From Minisyncoccota bacterium (GTDB taxonomy: Bacteria > Patescibacteriota > Minisyncoccia > JAHIHE01 > JAGLIN01): DNA of 35,214 nucleotides. Below the pieces are notes generated by a model, which saw only the letters and a program-made list of their open reading frames with translations, was not told where the DNA came from and did not search any database. The stretch is from NCBI GenBank assembly GCA_023142995.1, contig JAGLIM010000009.1:1-35214 (forward strand), in the 5' to 3' direction. Position numbers and translations under genes: made by a program. Shown piece by piece: positions 7,401-27,804 of this stretch. Each line of letters starts with the position of its first letter. Position 1 is the first letter of the stretch.

Positions 7401-8999
7401 ATGCAAAATAAAACACAAAATCCAAATCAAAGCAAAAACCAATTTTTTAAAAAAGAGCCGTTCTTTTTAATGACTATAAAAACGCTTTTAGCAATTTTAA
7501 TTTTTACAGCATTACTGACGATAATTATTGGCGGGGGATATATAATTTGGGAGTATTCTAAAACATCATCTAATAATCAGCCAGTTTTATTTGAAAAACA
7601 AGTTGTTTTAATAATCGACAAAACAGAATACCAAATAGGCGAGAAAGTAAAATTGACAGTTAAGAATAATTTAGATGATGAAATAGAATTTTATACCGTT
7701 GCTGTTGAAAAATTTAATAATAAAGAATGGCAACAAATTAGATTTGATATTGAGTGTCTTGGGTTGTGTACAAAAATACAAACCGTGATAAATTCTAAAA
7801 ATAACAAAAGTTTTTTATGGGATCAAAAAGATAATATTGGATTACAAATAATGGGAGGAAAATTTAGATTTATAATTGGGCTATGGGATAATGATTGGAA
7901 TGGTAGTGGATTGCCTTTAATGTTTAATTATTATTCCAATGAATTTAAAATAAAAGATTCTGTTATTGGTCCGTCACCAGGCAATATGGTTTGTGGCCAA
8001 GATTCTGATTGTGAAATAAACTATGCGAATTATTGTTGTGGGAAATGGGAGGGATGTTTTAATAAATATGATAATCCAGGAACTATAGGAGATTTAAATG
8101 ATCCTAATTGTAAATGTATTAAAAAGGAGCCAATTAAAGAATGCAGGTGTGTTAATAATATATGCCAGCCAGTATATGAAAGTAGTAAAGAGACAAAAAA
8201 CAGTGATAAGATTATCAAAAATTTAATCCAACAAATGGGAGACGACAATATCTCTCAAGAAACAAAAAACGCAATTCCAGGAAAACTCTACGATTACGGC
8301 AAAGAAGCAATCTCTTATTTAATTGAAGCATTGGATGATGAACGAGTTTTTGATAATTGCTATATGGGGTTAAGTGGTATTAAAAGATCGCCAAACGATA
8401 AATGTAATCAGTGTTTAGTTAAGCAAAAATGTAAAAATATTCTATACACCATAGTTAATCCAAAACCAATTTTGTATAAACATTTGCAATATATGAATTA
8501 TAATGTAGATTGGCAACAATGGTGGGATAAAAATCAAGACAAATCCTTAAACGAAATCAGAAAAATGGTTCGGGATTGGTACAGGGCAGAGGAAGAAAAA
8601 AATAATTATTCAACAATGGGTTATCGCGGGGAAGAATATGATTATTTGGATTTTACAGGGGATTTAAGTCATGATGATTTTCTTTTGAAATTTAAAGAAG
8701 TTTGCACAGGTTTTGATAATCTTAAACAAGTTGACTATTTAAAATGGCCAATTAGCTGTGGATGTTTGAGCGTTGATAGACATAGCTGCTATCGACATTT
8801 TGCCGAGTATAATAAAGATGCTTCTGTTTGTGATAAAATAACATGGGATGTTTTTGGGAGAGATAGCTGCTATTGGGCAGTAGCAGTTGAATTAAACAAG
8901 GTTGGTATGAATGATAAAATTGATTTTTGCAGCAAGATAGAAGATGCGCATATTGAAAATCATGCAAGGCAAAAAGCGTGTTTTGAATTAGCTAAATAA
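7401..8999 (+). CDS. Anchored Ig-like / Cys-module protein with Cys-rich C-terminus
   Basis: A 532 aa paralogue of its upstream neighbour at the N-terminus: MQNK start and anchor about residues 20-50. An Ig-like BsuPI-type domain follows at about 66-186 (EYQIGEKVKLTVKN ... YYSNEFKIKD), then a cysteine module at 198-255 opening CGQDSDC and closing CRCVNNIC. Residues about 265-400 are helical and resemble a HEAT-like segment (YGKEAISYLIEALDDERVF). The C-terminal hundred residues carry regularly spaced cysteines (CGCLSVDRHSCYRHFAEY, RDSCYWAVA, DFCSKIEDA, KACFELA), a pattern seen in CPR exported proteins. It differs from the 3529 protein in domain order (Ig before Cys module) and lacks the Kunitz-like domain. 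Confidence 0.8.
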   Translation: MQNKTQNPNQSKNQFFKKEPFFLMTIKTLLAILIFTALLTIIIGGGYIIWEYSKTSSNNQPVLFEKQVVLIIDKTEYQIGEKVKLTVKNNLDDEIEFYTVAVEKFNNKEWQQIRFDIECLGLCTKIQTVINSKNNKSFLWDQKDNIGLQIMGGKFRFIIGLWDNDWNGSGLPLMFNYYSNEFKIKDSVIGPSPGNMVCGQDSDCEINYANYCCGKWEGCFNKYDNPGTIGDLNDPNCKCIKKEPIKECRCVNNICQPVYESSKETKNSDKIIKNLIQQMGDDNISQETKNAIPGKLYDYGKEAISYLIEALDDERVFDNCYMGLSGIKRSPNDKCNQCLVKQKCKNILYTIVNPKPILYKHLQYMNYNVDWQQWWDKNQDKSLNEIRKMVRDWYRAEEEKNNYSTMGYRGEEYDYLDFTGDLSHDDFLLKFKEVCTGFDNLKQVDYLKWPISCGCLSVDRHSCYRHFAEYNKDASVCDKITWDVFGRDSCYWAVAVELNKVGMNDKIDFCSKIEDAHIENHARQKACFELAK

Positions 9000-16469: not shown

Positions 16470-16766
16470 ATGAAAGCACAAAAAACATATTGTGTTTATA
16501 TTACAGCAAGCAAAAGAAATGGCACTTTATATATAGGCGTAACGTCCAATCTCAAAAAAAGAATTTATGAACATAAAGAAAGTCTGATAGATGGATTTAC
16601 AAAGAAATACAAAGCTAATAAACTTGTTTATTTTGAAATGACAAATGATATTAATTGCGCTATTCAAAGAGAAAAACAATTGAAGAAGTGGAAAAGAGAA
16701 TGGAAGATAAAAATGATTGAAAAAGAAAATCCTTGTTGGATAGATTTATATTATAATTTGGAATAA
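16470..16766 (+). CDS. GIY-YIG nuclease family protein
   Basis: A 98 aa single-domain GIY-YIG protein of the short UPF0213/UvrC-N-like type. It has the paired strands YCVYIT and LYIGVT (the GIY...YIG equivalents), the Arg-containing helix NLKKRIYEHK, and QREKQLKKWKREWKIKMIEKEN, in which a Glu would bind metal. Such proteins are predicted DNA nucleases; the short ones have no firmly known target. The gene is enclosed by inverted copies of a short palindromic repeat (16375-16403 and 16821-16850), an arrangement I associate with CPR genomes and other bacteria. No SD. Confidence 0.9.
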   Translation: MKAQKTYCVYITASKRNGTLYIGVTSNLKKRIYEHKESLIDGFTKKYKANKLVYFEMTNDINCAIQREKQLKKWKREWKIKMIEKENPCWIDLYYNLE

Positions 16767-17761: not shown

Positions 17762-19315
17762 ATGCTTGAAAAACCAACAAATATTCTTATAATCCTTGAT
17801 GGATGGGGAGTTGCTTCAAAAAATAAGGGCAATGCCATTGAACTTGCTAAGAAGCCTTTTTATAATGATTTGATAAAAAAATATCCATACACAACTTTAA
17901 ACGCTACTGGACTTGCGGTTGGTTTATCTGAAAATGAAAGAAGCGGAAGTGAATCAGGTCATATAAATATTGGCGCGGGTAGAATCATAAAACAAGATTC
18001 TCAAATTATTCGAGAGGATATTGAGTCTGGAAAATTTTTTAAGAATCATGCTCTTATAAAAACAATGAATCATGCTTTAGCTAAAAAGTCTGATTTACAT
18101 TTTATAGGTCTTCTCTCTGAACTTGATAGCCCACATAGCGATCCTGATCATCTTTATGCTCTTTTGAAATTAGCAAAACAAAAAAAGATCAAACAAGTTT
18201 ATCTTCATCTTTTTACTGACGGAAGAGATACTTATAGAAAAAAAGCCCCTCTTTTTTTGAAAGATCTGAATAAACAAATTGAAAAAATAGGAATTGGGAA
18301 AATTGCTACAATAGGAGGAAGATACTATGGTATGGACAGGGTTAAACATTGGAACAGGCTTCAAAGGGCATATGATGCGATGGTTTTTGGTGAGGGTGCA
18401 AAAAGCAAATTTGCTGAAGAAGCGGTTGAAAATTCATATAAACAAGGCTTAACAGACGAATTTGTTGCTCCAACAGTTATAGTTGACAAGAAAAATAAAC
18501 CTATAGCAAAAATAAAAGATAATGATGTAATTATCCATTTTAACATAAGAGGCGACAGAGCTAGACAGTTTATGAAACTATTTGTTTTAAATGATATTAT
18601 TGGATATGAGAATAAGCCACATAAGCTAAAAGATGTCTATGCTTGTTCACTGTCTGATTTCGGTCCAGATCTTCCAGTACAAATAGCATATCCTTCTCAA
18701 GTTATTGAAAATACTTTACCTTTTATTTTGAAAAAATATAAACAGCTTTATATTGCCGAAGCGGAAAAATATCCGCATGTAACTTATTTTTTTAATGGTG
18801 GATACAAAGATCCTATTGGAGGAGAAAACAGAGAAAAAATTATGTCTCAAAATGTTTTTTCTTATGATCAAAAACCAGAAATGTCTGCTGGAGATATAAC
18901 AGATGTTATACTTTCGAATATAGAACATAGTGTTTATGATTTTATTGTTGTTAATTTTGCAAATGCTGATATGGTTGGGCATACGGGAAATCTGAAAGCA
19001 ACGATTCTAGCGATTGAATTTCTTGATAAATGTTTGCAACATGTTATTGAAAAAATAATTGAAAGTGGTGGAACAGCGATTATTACAGCAGACCACGGGA
19101 ACGCGGATGAAATGGTTGATCTGAAAACAGGAGAAACTATGACAATGCACAGCAAAAATCCAGTTCCTTTTATTATTGCAAGAGAGAAATGTGACAATAA
19201 AAAATGCAAATTAAAAAACAACGGAGTCCTTGGAAATATATCTCCAACTATATTAGATCTTCTTAATATAAAAAAACCAAAAGATGTAGTTTTGGGGAGT
19301 TTGATTGAGAAATAA
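17762..19315 (+). CDS. gpmI: 2,3-bisphosphoglycerate-independent phosphoglycerate mutase
   Basis: Interconverts 3- and 2-phosphoglycerate through a phosphoserine in an alkaline-phosphatase-like fold with two Mn ions. The 517 aa length is normal. Landmarks are ILDGWG (metal ligand D13), the catalytic-serine motif SGSESGHINIGAGR (S63, with Val to Ser in the usual SEVGH), HLFTDGRDT, GGRYYGMDRVKHW, NIRGDRARQ, VVNFANADMVGHTGN, TADHGNADEM and TMHSKNPVP. It completes the pgk-gpmI-eno set in this window. The start is the ATG at 17762; no SD. Confidence 0.97.
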   Translation: MLEKPTNILIILDGWGVASKNKGNAIELAKKPFYNDLIKKYPYTTLNATGLAVGLSENERSGSESGHINIGAGRIIKQDSQIIREDIESGKFFKNHALIKTMNHALAKKSDLHFIGLLSELDSPHSDPDHLYALLKLAKQKKIKQVYLHLFTDGRDTYRKKAPLFLKDLNKQIEKIGIGKIATIGGRYYGMDRVKHWNRLQRAYDAMVFGEGAKSKFAEEAVENSYKQGLTDEFVAPTVIVDKKNKPIAKIKDNDVIIHFNIRGDRARQFMKLFVLNDIIGYENKPHKLKDVYACSLSDFGPDLPVQIAYPSQVIENTLPFILKKYKQLYIAEAEKYPHVTYFFNGGYKDPIGGENREKIMSQNVFSYDQKPEMSAGDITDVILSNIEHSVYDFIVVNFANADMVGHTGNLKATILAIEFLDKCLQHVIEKIIESGGTAIITADHGNADEMVDLKTGETMTMHSKNPVPFIIAREKCDNKKCKLKNNGVLGNISPTILDLLNIKKPKDVVLGSLIEK

Positions 19316-19411: not shown

Positions 19412-19753
19412 ATGGAAGCAAAAAAAGATAAAATCATTTTAAAAGGAACGGGAGCAAGTGTTGGGGAAGCTGAAGGTATAGTGAAAATAATTACTAAAAA
19501 AGAGAATCTTCTTTCTTTTAAAAAAGGGGAAATATTAGTTGCCAAAATTACAGATCCTTCTTATGTGATGATAATGACAAAATCTTCCGCAATTATAACT
19601 GATACAGGAGGTTTGATGAGTCATCCTTCAATTGTAGCGCGTGAACTTGGGGTTCCTTGTGTTGTAGCTACCAAGTATGCTACCAGTGTTTTAAAAAATG
19701 GACAAAAAGTCAAAGTTGATGGTACTAATGGAATTATTTATGAGTCTAAATAA
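19412..19753 (+). CDS. Free-standing PEP-utilising enzyme mobile domain
   Basis: A 113 aa protein made of just the swivelling phosphohistidine domain (PEP-utilisers, PF00391) found in PEP synthase, PPDK and enzyme I. The domain signature is ITDTGGLMSHPSIVARELGVPCVV, with phospho-acceptor His71, preceded by GTGASVGEAEGIVKII and followed by GQKVKVDGTNGIIY. The ATP-grasp and PEP/pyruvate domains of the full enzymes are missing, and the neighbouring genes do not supply them. The next gene overlaps its last 14 bases, so the two products are probably made in step and may act together. It may be a phosphate carrier or a non-catalytic relative. Confidence 0.88.
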   Translation: MEAKKDKIILKGTGASVGEAEGIVKIITKKENLLSFKKGEILVAKITDPSYVMIMTKSSAIITDTGGLMSHPSIVARELGVPCVVATKYATSVLKNGQKVKVDGTNGIIYESK

Positions 19754-20837
19754 AAAAAATAAGATTGATCAATATCTTGATTCTTTGTCTTCTGTTTTTG
19801 ACAAAAATTCTATTTCAAGAGAATTTTGGCCTCTTAAGCCTGCGCAGATGACTGCTTGTTTTGATGATTCATTAGCAGTTGATATTTATAAAAGAATTGA
19901 TTTATTAAAAAAACAAAAAGTTCCACTTGAAAAAGTTGCGAAAATGTTTGATTCGCCATCTATGTTGAGAAACTTTTTAGAAAATTTTGCTAGTATTGGT
20001 TTAAAAGTAGCGCATAATGTTGGGTGGTTTAAAATAAGCTTCAAAGAAAGGGAAGTTTTTTTTAATTATCTTTTTAGAGTATTAAAAAAAATGTCAAAAA
20101 ATGATATTTTTATTAGAGATGGAAAGCAAATTATTTTAAGTACCACAGAATTAAAAAATATTTCTCCAAAAAAATTTATTAAGACGGACGATAAAAATAG
20201 TAAAATTATAAAAATATTTAATTTATCATTGTTTGGGTTGGTTTGGGCTATGTACTTTGACACTTTTTATTATACAGGCTTTAGTACTCATGGACCCTAT
20301 AGAGTGTCAAAGAAGTTTGGAATAAAGAATGGAGTCTTGGTTATTAGTGATTACTTTAATCTTCGTCCAGTAGGGATTTGGAGTATTACAAAAAAAGTTC
20401 CATTTGAAAAAGTTCGTATCTATAGTGTCTATGAAAACGCAGATTGGAGTATAAATTTTTTTGAGAGAACTAATGCCAGTGTCGATTTGAGCAATAGACT
20501 TGTTTTTTTTGAGGTTGAAATAGATGGAAAAATAATAAAAGATTTAGAAAAAATTGAAAAATTAACTCAGCAGATTTTTGAAATTAATCAAAAACAAACA
20601 GATGCTGTAAATAGTTTATCTAATTTAGAAAAAATCAAAAAAGCATCTGAAATTTCTTATTACGGACTGCGAGGAGTTTTTGATCATTTTAATGAAAGCT
20701 GGAATCCTCCAAAAGAGATTGATGAGGTTATTCGGAAAAATGGAGAAGATTTTATAAAAAAGTTTGATTATGATTTGACTGATTATTCTTCGTCAAAAAT
20801 TCGGAAGTTGTTTGATCCTAGGAATAATTGGTATTAA
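19740..20837 (+). CDS. Unknown protein coupled to the PEP mobile domain
   Basis: 365 aa from the ATG at 19740 (MSLNKKNKIDQYLDSLSSVF). Longer frames exist upstream, but they would read deep into the previous gene. The chosen start overlaps that gene's stop at 19751-19753 by 14 nt, which suggests translational coupling. I recognise no family. The protein is soluble-looking, lacks a signal peptide, and mixes helical parts with a beta-rich middle (residues about 160-260: FSTHGPYRVSKKFGIKNGV, LRPVGIWSI, RLVFFEVEIDG). The C-terminus is charged (YYGLRGVFDHFNESWNPPKE). No nucleotide-binding motif (P-loop, ATP-grasp) is evident by eye. It could be the partner or substrate-binding half of a split phosphotransfer enzyme, but that is inference. 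Confidence 0.75.
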   Translation: MSLNKKNKIDQYLDSLSSVFDKNSISREFWPLKPAQMTACFDDSLAVDIYKRIDLLKKQKVPLEKVAKMFDSPSMLRNFLENFASIGLKVAHNVGWFKISFKEREVFFNYLFRVLKKMSKNDIFIRDGKQIILSTTELKNISPKKFIKTDDKNSKIIKIFNLSLFGLVWAMYFDTFYYTGFSTHGPYRVSKKFGIKNGVLVISDYFNLRPVGIWSITKKVPFEKVRIYSVYENADWSINFFERTNASVDLSNRLVFFEVEIDGKIIKDLEKIEKLTQQIFEINQKQTDAVNSLSNLEKIKKASEISYYGLRGVFDHFNESWNPPKEIDEVIRKNGEDFIKKFDYDLTDYSSSKIRKLFDPRNNWY

Positions 20838-26061: not shown

Positions 26062-27804
26062 ATGACTAAACTTTCAAGCTATGACAAAGAGAAGAAATCT
26101 TTTGGAAATCGTAGAAAAGATACAGTTTCCCCGTTTCCAGATTTAAATCGTGAAGCATTTTCTTATGTAATTGATATTATTGTTAAAAAAGCAAACAAAG
26201 AAAAGATAGAAATTCAAGAAGATAACCCAGAACTACAAAAACTAATTCAAAGCGAAAACTTTGGAAAACTCTATGCTTATGCCATAGAAAAGGTTACTCC
26301 AGCAGAAGAAAATGAATTACTGACAATCGAAGGGGAATGGATGAAATACGATAAAGATTCTGACCATATGCCATTAGTAGAATCATTACAGGGTCATGGA
26401 ACAGGTTGGTGTACAGTAGGAGAATCAACAGCAGAAGCACAACTTAAAGAAGGAGATTTCTATGTCTATTACTCAAATGATAAAGACAATAACCCAACAA
26501 TCCCAAGAGTGGCAATTCGTATGGAAGGAGATCAAATCGGAGAAGTTCGTGGAATAGCCCCAGACCAAAATCTTGATAATGAAATTCAAGATGTATTAGA
26601 TGAAAAGCTATCTGAATTTACAGATAAAGAAAAATATGAAAAGAAAACAGCTGATATGAAATTTCTTACTGAAATAGAAAAAAAGATCAGTAAAAACGAA
26701 GAATTAAAAATAGATGATCTCAAATTCCTTTATGAAATTGACTCTAAAATTGAAGGATTTGGTCATGAGGACGATCCGAGGATTGGGGAGATTACAGAAG
26801 AAAGGGATATTAAAAAAGATCTTTCTGTGATCTTTCAATGTCAGGCAGATCAAGTCGCGCTTTCAACAGACAAATTAAATGAAACTACAATTGTTCTTAA
26901 AGATAATATGAATTCTTATGAGAGTGAATACGCAAATTTTCCAGATAGTTTGACTTATATTGTTGGAAGCTTAAGTTTTGAAGGTAGTGATTTAGAAGAG
27001 TTAAATTTTAATTTATCATCAATTAGTGGGGATTTAAGTTTTCGGAATAGTCAAATCAAAAAATTGCCTTCAAATTTAACTTCAATCGGTGGAGAACTAG
27101 ATATTTCTGATAGCCAGATAAAAGAACTTTCTTCAAAATTAGCTAGAATTGGTGGAAGTGTTTTTTTACGAGGGAGTCAGATAGAAGAACTTCCTGATAG
27201 TCTAATTTCAATCGGTGAATATATAAATCTTGAAAATAGCAAACTAAAAAAGTTTCCTCCAAATCTGATTTTAAATAATACAAAGTTTGATCTTACAAAC
27301 AGCCAGATCAAAGAACTTCCTGACAATCTAACTTCAATCGGTGGAAATTTACATCTTTATAAAAGTCAAATCAAAGAACTTCCTAAAAATTTAACATCAA
27401 TTAATGGAAGTTTACATCTTTATGATAGTCAAATAGAAAAGCTTCCCGACAATTTAGTTTCAATTAGTGGAAATTTGTATATTGGAGATAGTGAATTAAA
27501 AGAATTGCCTTCAGGCTTAACTTCAATTGGTGGAAATTTAGATCTTACAAATAATAAATTAGAAGAATTTCCCAATAGTTTAATCTCAGTCGGTGGTAGT
27601 GTGCTTCTTGGATATAGTCATCTTAAAGAATTTCCTAAAAATCTAACTTCAATCGGCGGATCTTTGGATATCAAAAATAGCAAACTGAAAGAATTTCCTA
27701 AAAACCTAACTTTAATCGGCGGAAGCCTATATCTTGACGAGGATCAGGTTAAAAATTTGCCATCAAATATAAAAGATATAGTCAAAGGAGAAATTTCAAG
27801 TTAA
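26062..27804 (+). CDS. PcfJ-like/LRR protein (3' part of the broken gene)
   Basis: 580 aa from the first ATG after the TAA at 25882, in the same frame as the 25594 piece. Residues 1-50 (YDKEKKSFGNRRKDTVSPFPDLNR) continue the upstream domain. Residues about 92-180 resemble the PcfJ-like core, with GTGWCTVGESTA (W116, C117), GDFYVYYS and IGEVRGIAPDQNLD. From about 295 to 575 there are about 13 leucine-rich repeats of 21 residues (consensus LTSIGGNLxLxxSQIKELPxN), fairly uniform at the DNA level (63 bp), so they expanded recently or are homogenised. No signal peptide. The function of such proteins in CPR is unknown; LRRs suggest protein binding. Whether this part is translated alone is uncertain. 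Confidence 0.75.
   Translation: MTKLSSYDKEKKSFGNRRKDTVSPFPDLNREAFSYVIDIIVKKANKEKIEIQEDNPELQKLIQSENFGKLYAYAIEKVTPAEENELLTIEGEWMKYDKDSDHMPLVESLQGHGTGWCTVGESTAEAQLKEGDFYVYYSNDKDNNPTIPRVAIRMEGDQIGEVRGIAPDQNLDNEIQDVLDEKLSEFTDKEKYEKKTADMKFLTEIEKKISKNEELKIDDLKFLYEIDSKIEGFGHEDDPRIGEITEERDIKKDLSVIFQCQADQVALSTDKLNETTIVLKDNMNSYESEYANFPDSLTYIVGSLSFEGSDLEELNFNLSSISGDLSFRNSQIKKLPSNLTSIGGELDISDSQIKELSSKLARIGGSVFLRGSQIEELPDSLISIGEYINLENSKLKKFPPNLILNNTKFDLTNSQIKELPDNLTSIGGNLHLYKSQIKELPKNLTSINGSLHLYDSQIEKLPDNLVSISGNLYIGDSELKELPSGLTSIGGNLDLTNNKLEEFPNSLISVGGSVLLGYSHLKEFPKNLTSIGGSLDIKNSKLKEFPKNLTLIGGSLYLDEDQVKNLPSNIKDIVKGEISS
26952..27770 (+). repeat. 63 bp tandem LRR-coding repeats
   Basis: About 13 in-frame units of 63 bp encode 21-residue leucine-rich repeats. 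Recurrent blocks are 'aacttcaatcggtgga' and 'agtcaaatcaaagaactt'. The units differ mostly by point changes, and the repeats fill the 3' half of the gene. Confidence 0.85.

Follow-up and report, generated by a model that had tools for sequence, protein, structure and literature searches.

The question raised by this locus is what a free-standing phosphohistidine swivel domain, encoded next to a protein without a known family, does in a Patescibacteria genome. In the window, by which we mean the whole 35,214-nucleotide stretch analyzed (contig JAGLIM010000009.1 of Minisyncoccota assembly GCA_023142995.1), both genes lie on the forward strand, at positions 19412 to 19753 (P1, 113 amino acids) and 19740 to 20837 (P2, 365 amino acids). 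The ATG of P2 at 19740 falls inside P1, and the 14-nt overlap (19740 to 19753, forward strand; ATGAGTCTAAATAA) suggests that the two are translationally coupled. The gpmI gene ends at 19315, 97 nt upstream of P1.

Judged by its sequence, P1 is a true PF00391 domain (E value, 6.9e-26). In a Pfam profile search its residues 36 to 107 cover the full profile (1 to 72 of 72), and in the PDB it comes closest to the central swivel domain of PEP synthases (1.7e-26; 9dae_A). The predicted phospho-acceptor, His71 (codon at 19622 to 19624, forward strand), is part of an S-H-P motif (TDTGGLMSH71PSIVAREL); its GGLMSH fits the GGxxxH pattern of the catalytic histidine, which is kept in 14 of 14 P1 proteins. 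The preliminary description of this DNA was correct on these points: the domain stands in the window with His71 intact and with no ATP-grasp or PEP-binding domain adjoining it, and the next gene begins within it. SHP occupies the active site of 13 of the 14 P1 proteins found at P2 loci and of none of the 51 swivel domains from other groups (X-His, PpsA, and RPH-like) with which they were compared; the stand-alone swivels thus have SHP in place of (S/C)H(A/G/S). In the window P1, a Met lies two residues before the His, where PEP synthase has a Thr that is a regulatory phosphorylation site (PMC12167813). In a tree built from 107 columns, 13 of the 14 P1 proteins group together with modest support (94/77), and the P1 of L116 is placed beside X-His proteins. 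At L115 (4081 to 5028), P1 is fused in frame to an LMW protein-phosphatase domain (LMWPc; 5.5e-23) and P2 starts at the end of the fusion, while the P1 of L110, from the same genus, has no such fusion. Matches from Proteus and Verrucomicrobia (L009 and L014), examined as possible stand-alone swivels outside Patescibacteria, were found to be long RPH-like proteins.

The partner was described at the outset as belonging to no recognised family, and it still does. P2 had nothing over the cut-off in Pfam (the best, DUF3958, scored 21.6 bits where the cut-off was 26.3) or NCBIfam, nothing significant among PDB sequences, and no meaningful match in PADLOC, PHROGs, plasmids, phages, or IMG/VR. DUF3958, Nrf2, and Crp were rejected as relatives, the matches being weak and either below the cut-off or marginal. 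Members of the P2 family share 17 to 33% identity with the window P2 (n = 16), and their alignment revealed a core motif, Y172-x-D174 ... G185-P186-Y187 (20253 to 20300, forward strand). Residues G185, P186, Y187, W214, W321, and P323 are invariant in 16 of 16 members, and Y172 and D174 are altered only in that of L109 (genome G506), one of the two members without P1. The 16 members share an invariant Tyr and a near-invariant Asp, and no invariant His.

An AlphaFold model of P2 made from the 16 sequences (pLDDT, 91.2; pTM, 0.90) predicts a helical N-terminal half, a beta-sheet region at residues 181 to 266, and C-terminal helices. Foldseek found no match to this model at an E value of ≤0.001 in the PDB or among viral models (BFVD), which is what is meant here by no known fold; as a control, the same search readily matched an X-His model to RPH. 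The search for a kinase or PEP-binding fold that the preliminary description had recommended came back empty by sequence and by Foldseek against the PDB and BFVD: neither in sequence nor in fold does P2 resemble the barrel of the PEP/pyruvate-binding domain, and it matches none of the solved kinase folds. The reading of P2 as an X/RPH substrate domain that has diverged was also rejected, the hhalign probability being about 1% and the Foldseek result pointing the same way. P2 thus resembles no substrate domain by profile and no solved fold, and it is from its genomic context that we infer its role as a putative acceptor-binding or effector module.

That context was assembled by searches for P2 that covered the family (14 genomes) and the order (18 genomes) and sampled the class (384 genomes) and the phylum (380 genomes). 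P2 is sporadic: we count 16 loci, spread over 15 genomes and at least eleven families of Patescibacteria, excluding two weak matches, G337 (5.9e-4) and G471 (2.4e-4), the former of which falls within an apparent methyltransferase gene. The comparative data show that the two genes are linked. At 13 of the 16 loci, P1 overlaps P2 or lies directly next to it (window, L021, L022, L086, L108, and each of L110 to L117). At L087, P1 lies 2.9 kb downstream of P2, within a span of 4.3 kb and beside PPDK_N, the ATP-grasp half considered below, and at L107 (G468) and L109 (G506) P1 is absent, with no stand-alone swivel domain anywhere in either genome. Since P1 and P2 are neighbors at 12 other Patescibacteria loci, the arrangement in the window is not due to chance. 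The distances among P1 proteins also track those among P2 proteins (r = 0.72, a value that none of 10,000 permutations reached), partly owing to shared phylogeny.

Conservation of this kind bears directly on whether P1 is merely what remains of a decayed PEP synthase, with an unrelated gene next to it. Lone swivel domains may resemble fragments, and the assembly is a draft MAG; against decay, many families keep both genes whole and side by side, the active-site His is present in all 14 P1 proteins, and P1 is usually kept even though the two P1-less loci indicate that it can be lost. We consider gene decay extremely improbable. The P1-less loci raise a further alternative: P2 could be an enzyme in its own right, perhaps one that carries out nucleotide chemistry of its own, and P1 a subunit with an accessory or regulatory role. 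The P2 of G468 keeps the core motifs without P1 or a stand-alone PPDK_N, and a protein with no fold match could represent a new catalytic fold. However, P1 adjoins P2 at nearly all loci, the P1-less member of G506 has lost Y172 and D174, and both P1-less members fall inside the clade of the window in the P2 tree (100/100 for the five). Because of this nesting, loss of P1 in G468 and G506 would be the simplest reading, and an independent enzyme appears unlikely. Because neither genome has a stand-alone P1 or PPDK_N, P2 may there act alone or with PpsA.

Other genes near P2 were noted by eye. Candidate regulators of a similar helix-turn-helix, TrmB-like type are encoded at five loci, no more than about 5.5 kb from P2 (L110, 7505 to 8263; L112, 2955 to 3710; L113, 8298 to 9053; L115, 2243 to 2986; L117, 10256 to 10900), and a 569-amino-acid serine recombinase-like protein is encoded about 1.4 kb from the P2 of G115 (L087, 1725 to 3434), a hint of possible mobility. 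In the window, a 98-amino-acid GIY-YIG-like protein (16470 to 16766) is encoded between enolase and gpmI, as is a GIY-YIG-like gene in G005 (L021, 9810 to 10109). The window also encodes large proteins at 7401 to 8999 and 26062 to 27804, with Ig-like Big_14 (9.2e-7) and leucine-rich repeat LRR_5 (5.3e-10) matches, which are likely surface proteins.

The position behind gpmI had led to the proposal that the pair is linked to PEP, the product of that pathway. Under such a scheme, P1 and P2 would form a PEP-driven split PEP synthase, or a PTS tied to glycolysis, with PEP from the gpmI/enolase pathway charging His71, and the positions of gpmI and eno, shortly upstream of the pair in the window, in G005, and in G009, are consistent with it. 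These three genomes all belong to family f1, however, and at the loci examined outside that family P2 has no gpmI next to it and its neighbors are unrelated genes; moreover, P2 is unlike the PEP/pyruvate-binding barrel, the PPDK_N association indicates ATP as the donor, and the genome of the window encodes a complete PpsA elsewhere, away from P1-P2. With gpmI adjacency confined to f1, no PEP-binding fold in P2, and an ATP-grasp donor domain at hand, the PEP reading fails, and we regard it as highly improbable. Of the phosphotransfer proposal, the part that stands is the split or novel system, upheld by a conserved and adjacent pair and a separate PPDK_N.

The genome of the window contains a stand-alone 319-amino-acid PPDK_N (G000:C32), on another contig and beside an X-His gene. 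As the comparative data show, stand-alone PPDK_N co-occurs with P2, being present in 12 of 15 P2 genomes, whereas among 80 genomes of the phylum that lack P2 it is present in 5 to 7 (5 cases are clear, 2 partial; Fisher P values of 4e-9 to 3e-8, uncorrected for phylogeny). It is missing from G468, G506, and G716, the last of which has the P1-P2 pair. In five genomes (G372, G409, G105, G115, and G005) PPDK_N is physically near P1-P2. The gene order is PPDK_N, P1, P2 at L086; P1, P2, PPDK_N at L111; P2, P1, X-His, PPDK_N at L116; and P2, two genes, PPDK_N, P1 at L087; at L021, PPDK_N is 2.2 kb from P2. The simplest inventories are those of G005 and G009, where PF00391 domains occur in PpsA and P1 alone, and PPDK_N domains in PpsA and a single stand-alone protein. 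Since neither genome has another unpaired PF00391 or PPDK_N domain, the gene content makes it most likely that the lone PPDK_N and the lone P1 serve each other.

The X-His genes of P2 genomes encode proteins of about 345 to 530 amino acids with a C-terminal swivel domain and occur singly or in arrays; in L119 eight of them lie beside PPDK_N, and L120 has eight and L121 five. The arrays (L119, 2807 to 16919; L120, 2802 to 14271; L121, 2610 to 12283; and L123) consist of genes that each fuse a different N-terminal domain to the swivel; one PPDK_N adjoins the array in L119 and in L121, and some arrays enclose a histidine-phosphatase relative. The model of the X-His protein from the genome of the window (479 amino acids; pLDDT, 87) matches RPH with a Foldseek E value of 1.8e-13 over 564 columns, more than the swivel domain by itself would account for. 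Because the match extends beyond the swivel, PPDK_N together with X-His looks like a two-component dikinase of the HpeHI/PpsAB/CreHI kind.

In our best reading, P1 and P2 supply two of the three chains of a dikinase, an RPH/HpeHI-like enzyme that has been taken apart. A separate PPDK_N would move phosphate from ATP to His71 of P1 (in the genome of the window, the ATP-grasp partner would be the PPDK_N at G000:C32), P1 would dock on P2 and pass the phosphate to a P2-bound acceptor, most likely a small molecule, and a co-encoded histidine phosphatase would hydrolyze the phosphohistidine or the phosphorylated product. We judge this course of events to have a roughly even chance of being right. In its favor, RPH-like fusions of substrate and swivel domains lie beside PPDK_N in the same clusters; against it, the PPDK_N of the window genome is on a different contig from P1-P2, and the genes neighboring P1-P2 give no hint of a substrate.

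The phosphatase enters this scheme from the gene convergent with P2 (20911 to 21522, reverse strand), which encodes a divergent histidine-phosphatase-superfamily protein of 203 amino acids (PF00300 E value, 9.7e-6; 25.8 bits against a cut-off of 21.7) with the RHG motif in VVRHGPY, and which we propose as the putative phosphatase of the P1-P2 system. The comparative data show HMM-related proteins adjoining nine P1-P2 loci (window, L021, L022, L108, L111, L113 [in two pieces], L114, L116, and L117), a count that describes a shared family and is not independent discovery, as six of the nine loci contributed to the eight divergent RHG/RHS-motif proteins, the window protein included, that seeded the HMM. 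By chance, the 15 genomes together should have about 0.3 PF00300 genes near P2, a figure that understates the background because PF00300 misses several of these divergent proteins. Other R-H-motif proteins near P1 at L110, L112, and L115 have no Pfam match and are excluded from the nine. At L113 (6349 to 7241), the relative spans two overlapping frames, through a frameshift, a pseudogene, or an assembly error.

These neighbors also count in favor of the main rival, a regulatory phosphorelay in which a phosphohistidine charged by PPDK_N and P1 governs P2 through phosphorylation or binding, a SixA-like histidine phosphatase resets the signal, and no small-molecule product is made. Phosphatase relatives also occur in X-His clusters and, because the X-His substrate domains differ, the element shared by the two kinds of cluster would be the swivel/PPDK_N part. 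The LMWPc fusion of the L115 P1 and the two genomes carrying P2 without P1 fit a relay as well, and there are precedents: SixA dephosphorylates the phosphocarrier NPr (PMC7948535), and the PPDK-derived VadK acts as a regulatory histidine kinase (PMC13400623). On the other hand, the RPH-like substrate domains in the same PPDK_N clusters indicate small molecules, P2 has no invariant His to receive the phosphate, though it does have an invariant Tyr and a near-invariant Asp, and the phosphatases could equally target a phosphorylated metabolite. A regulatory phosphorelay is thus a real possibility, although a doubtful one. Tentatively, PPDK_N, P1-P2, and a dedicated histidine phosphatase might constitute a phosphohistidine relay distinct from both PTS and two-component signalling, in which P2 is a target or effector with a new fold and which runs alongside up to eight RPH-like acceptor modules served by one shared ATP-grasp kinase.

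If the three-chain dikinase is right, the swivel would be able to act as a diffusible carrier linking an ATP-grasp kinase with a partner of a new kind, whereas apart from P1 the dikinase-family swivel was seen here always within larger enzymes, and P2, a family with a confident model and no known fold, would gain a testable function. The arrays would then also point to large modular phosphotransferase families in Patescibacteria, with one PPDK_N and up to eight X-His genes; a limited literature search found no description of such families or of a stand-alone swivel/partner pair.

Among known systems, PEP synthase and PPDK have a central swivel domain homologous to P1; they differ in their PEP/pyruvate-binding domain, which P1 and P2 lack, and in their His motif, (C/S)HA in contrast to SHP. 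RPH (PMC4844700) likewise combines ATP-grasp and swivel families with a variable substrate domain, but in one chain, and its RIF-binding domain is unrelated to P2 by the tests used here. PTS-Ntr with SixA (PMC7948535) resembles the locus in having a phosphohistidine carrier and a histidine-phosphatase-superfamily gene nearby, although no EI, NPr, or EIIA component came to light here and the phosphatase and its target are proposed from gene context, and VadK (PMC13400623) resembles it in its derivation from PPDK. The closest comparison is with HpeHI, PpsAB, and CreHI, experimentally established two-component kinases with ATP-grasp and substrate/swivel chains in which the swivel His is essential (PMC12167813). 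As in these, the ATP-grasp domain is on its own chain (G000:C32, and in 12 of 15 P2 genomes) and the swivel His is conserved. The X-His genes beside PPDK_N share the HpeHI layout and have an RPH-like model, and in the X-His control, as in HpeH, the swivel is fused to an RPH-like substrate domain; P1, in contrast, stands alone, and P2 is unlike HpeH/RPH or any solved fold in the PDB or BFVD. P1-P2 is therefore not an HpeHI-type two-component kinase as defined, but it may work like one.
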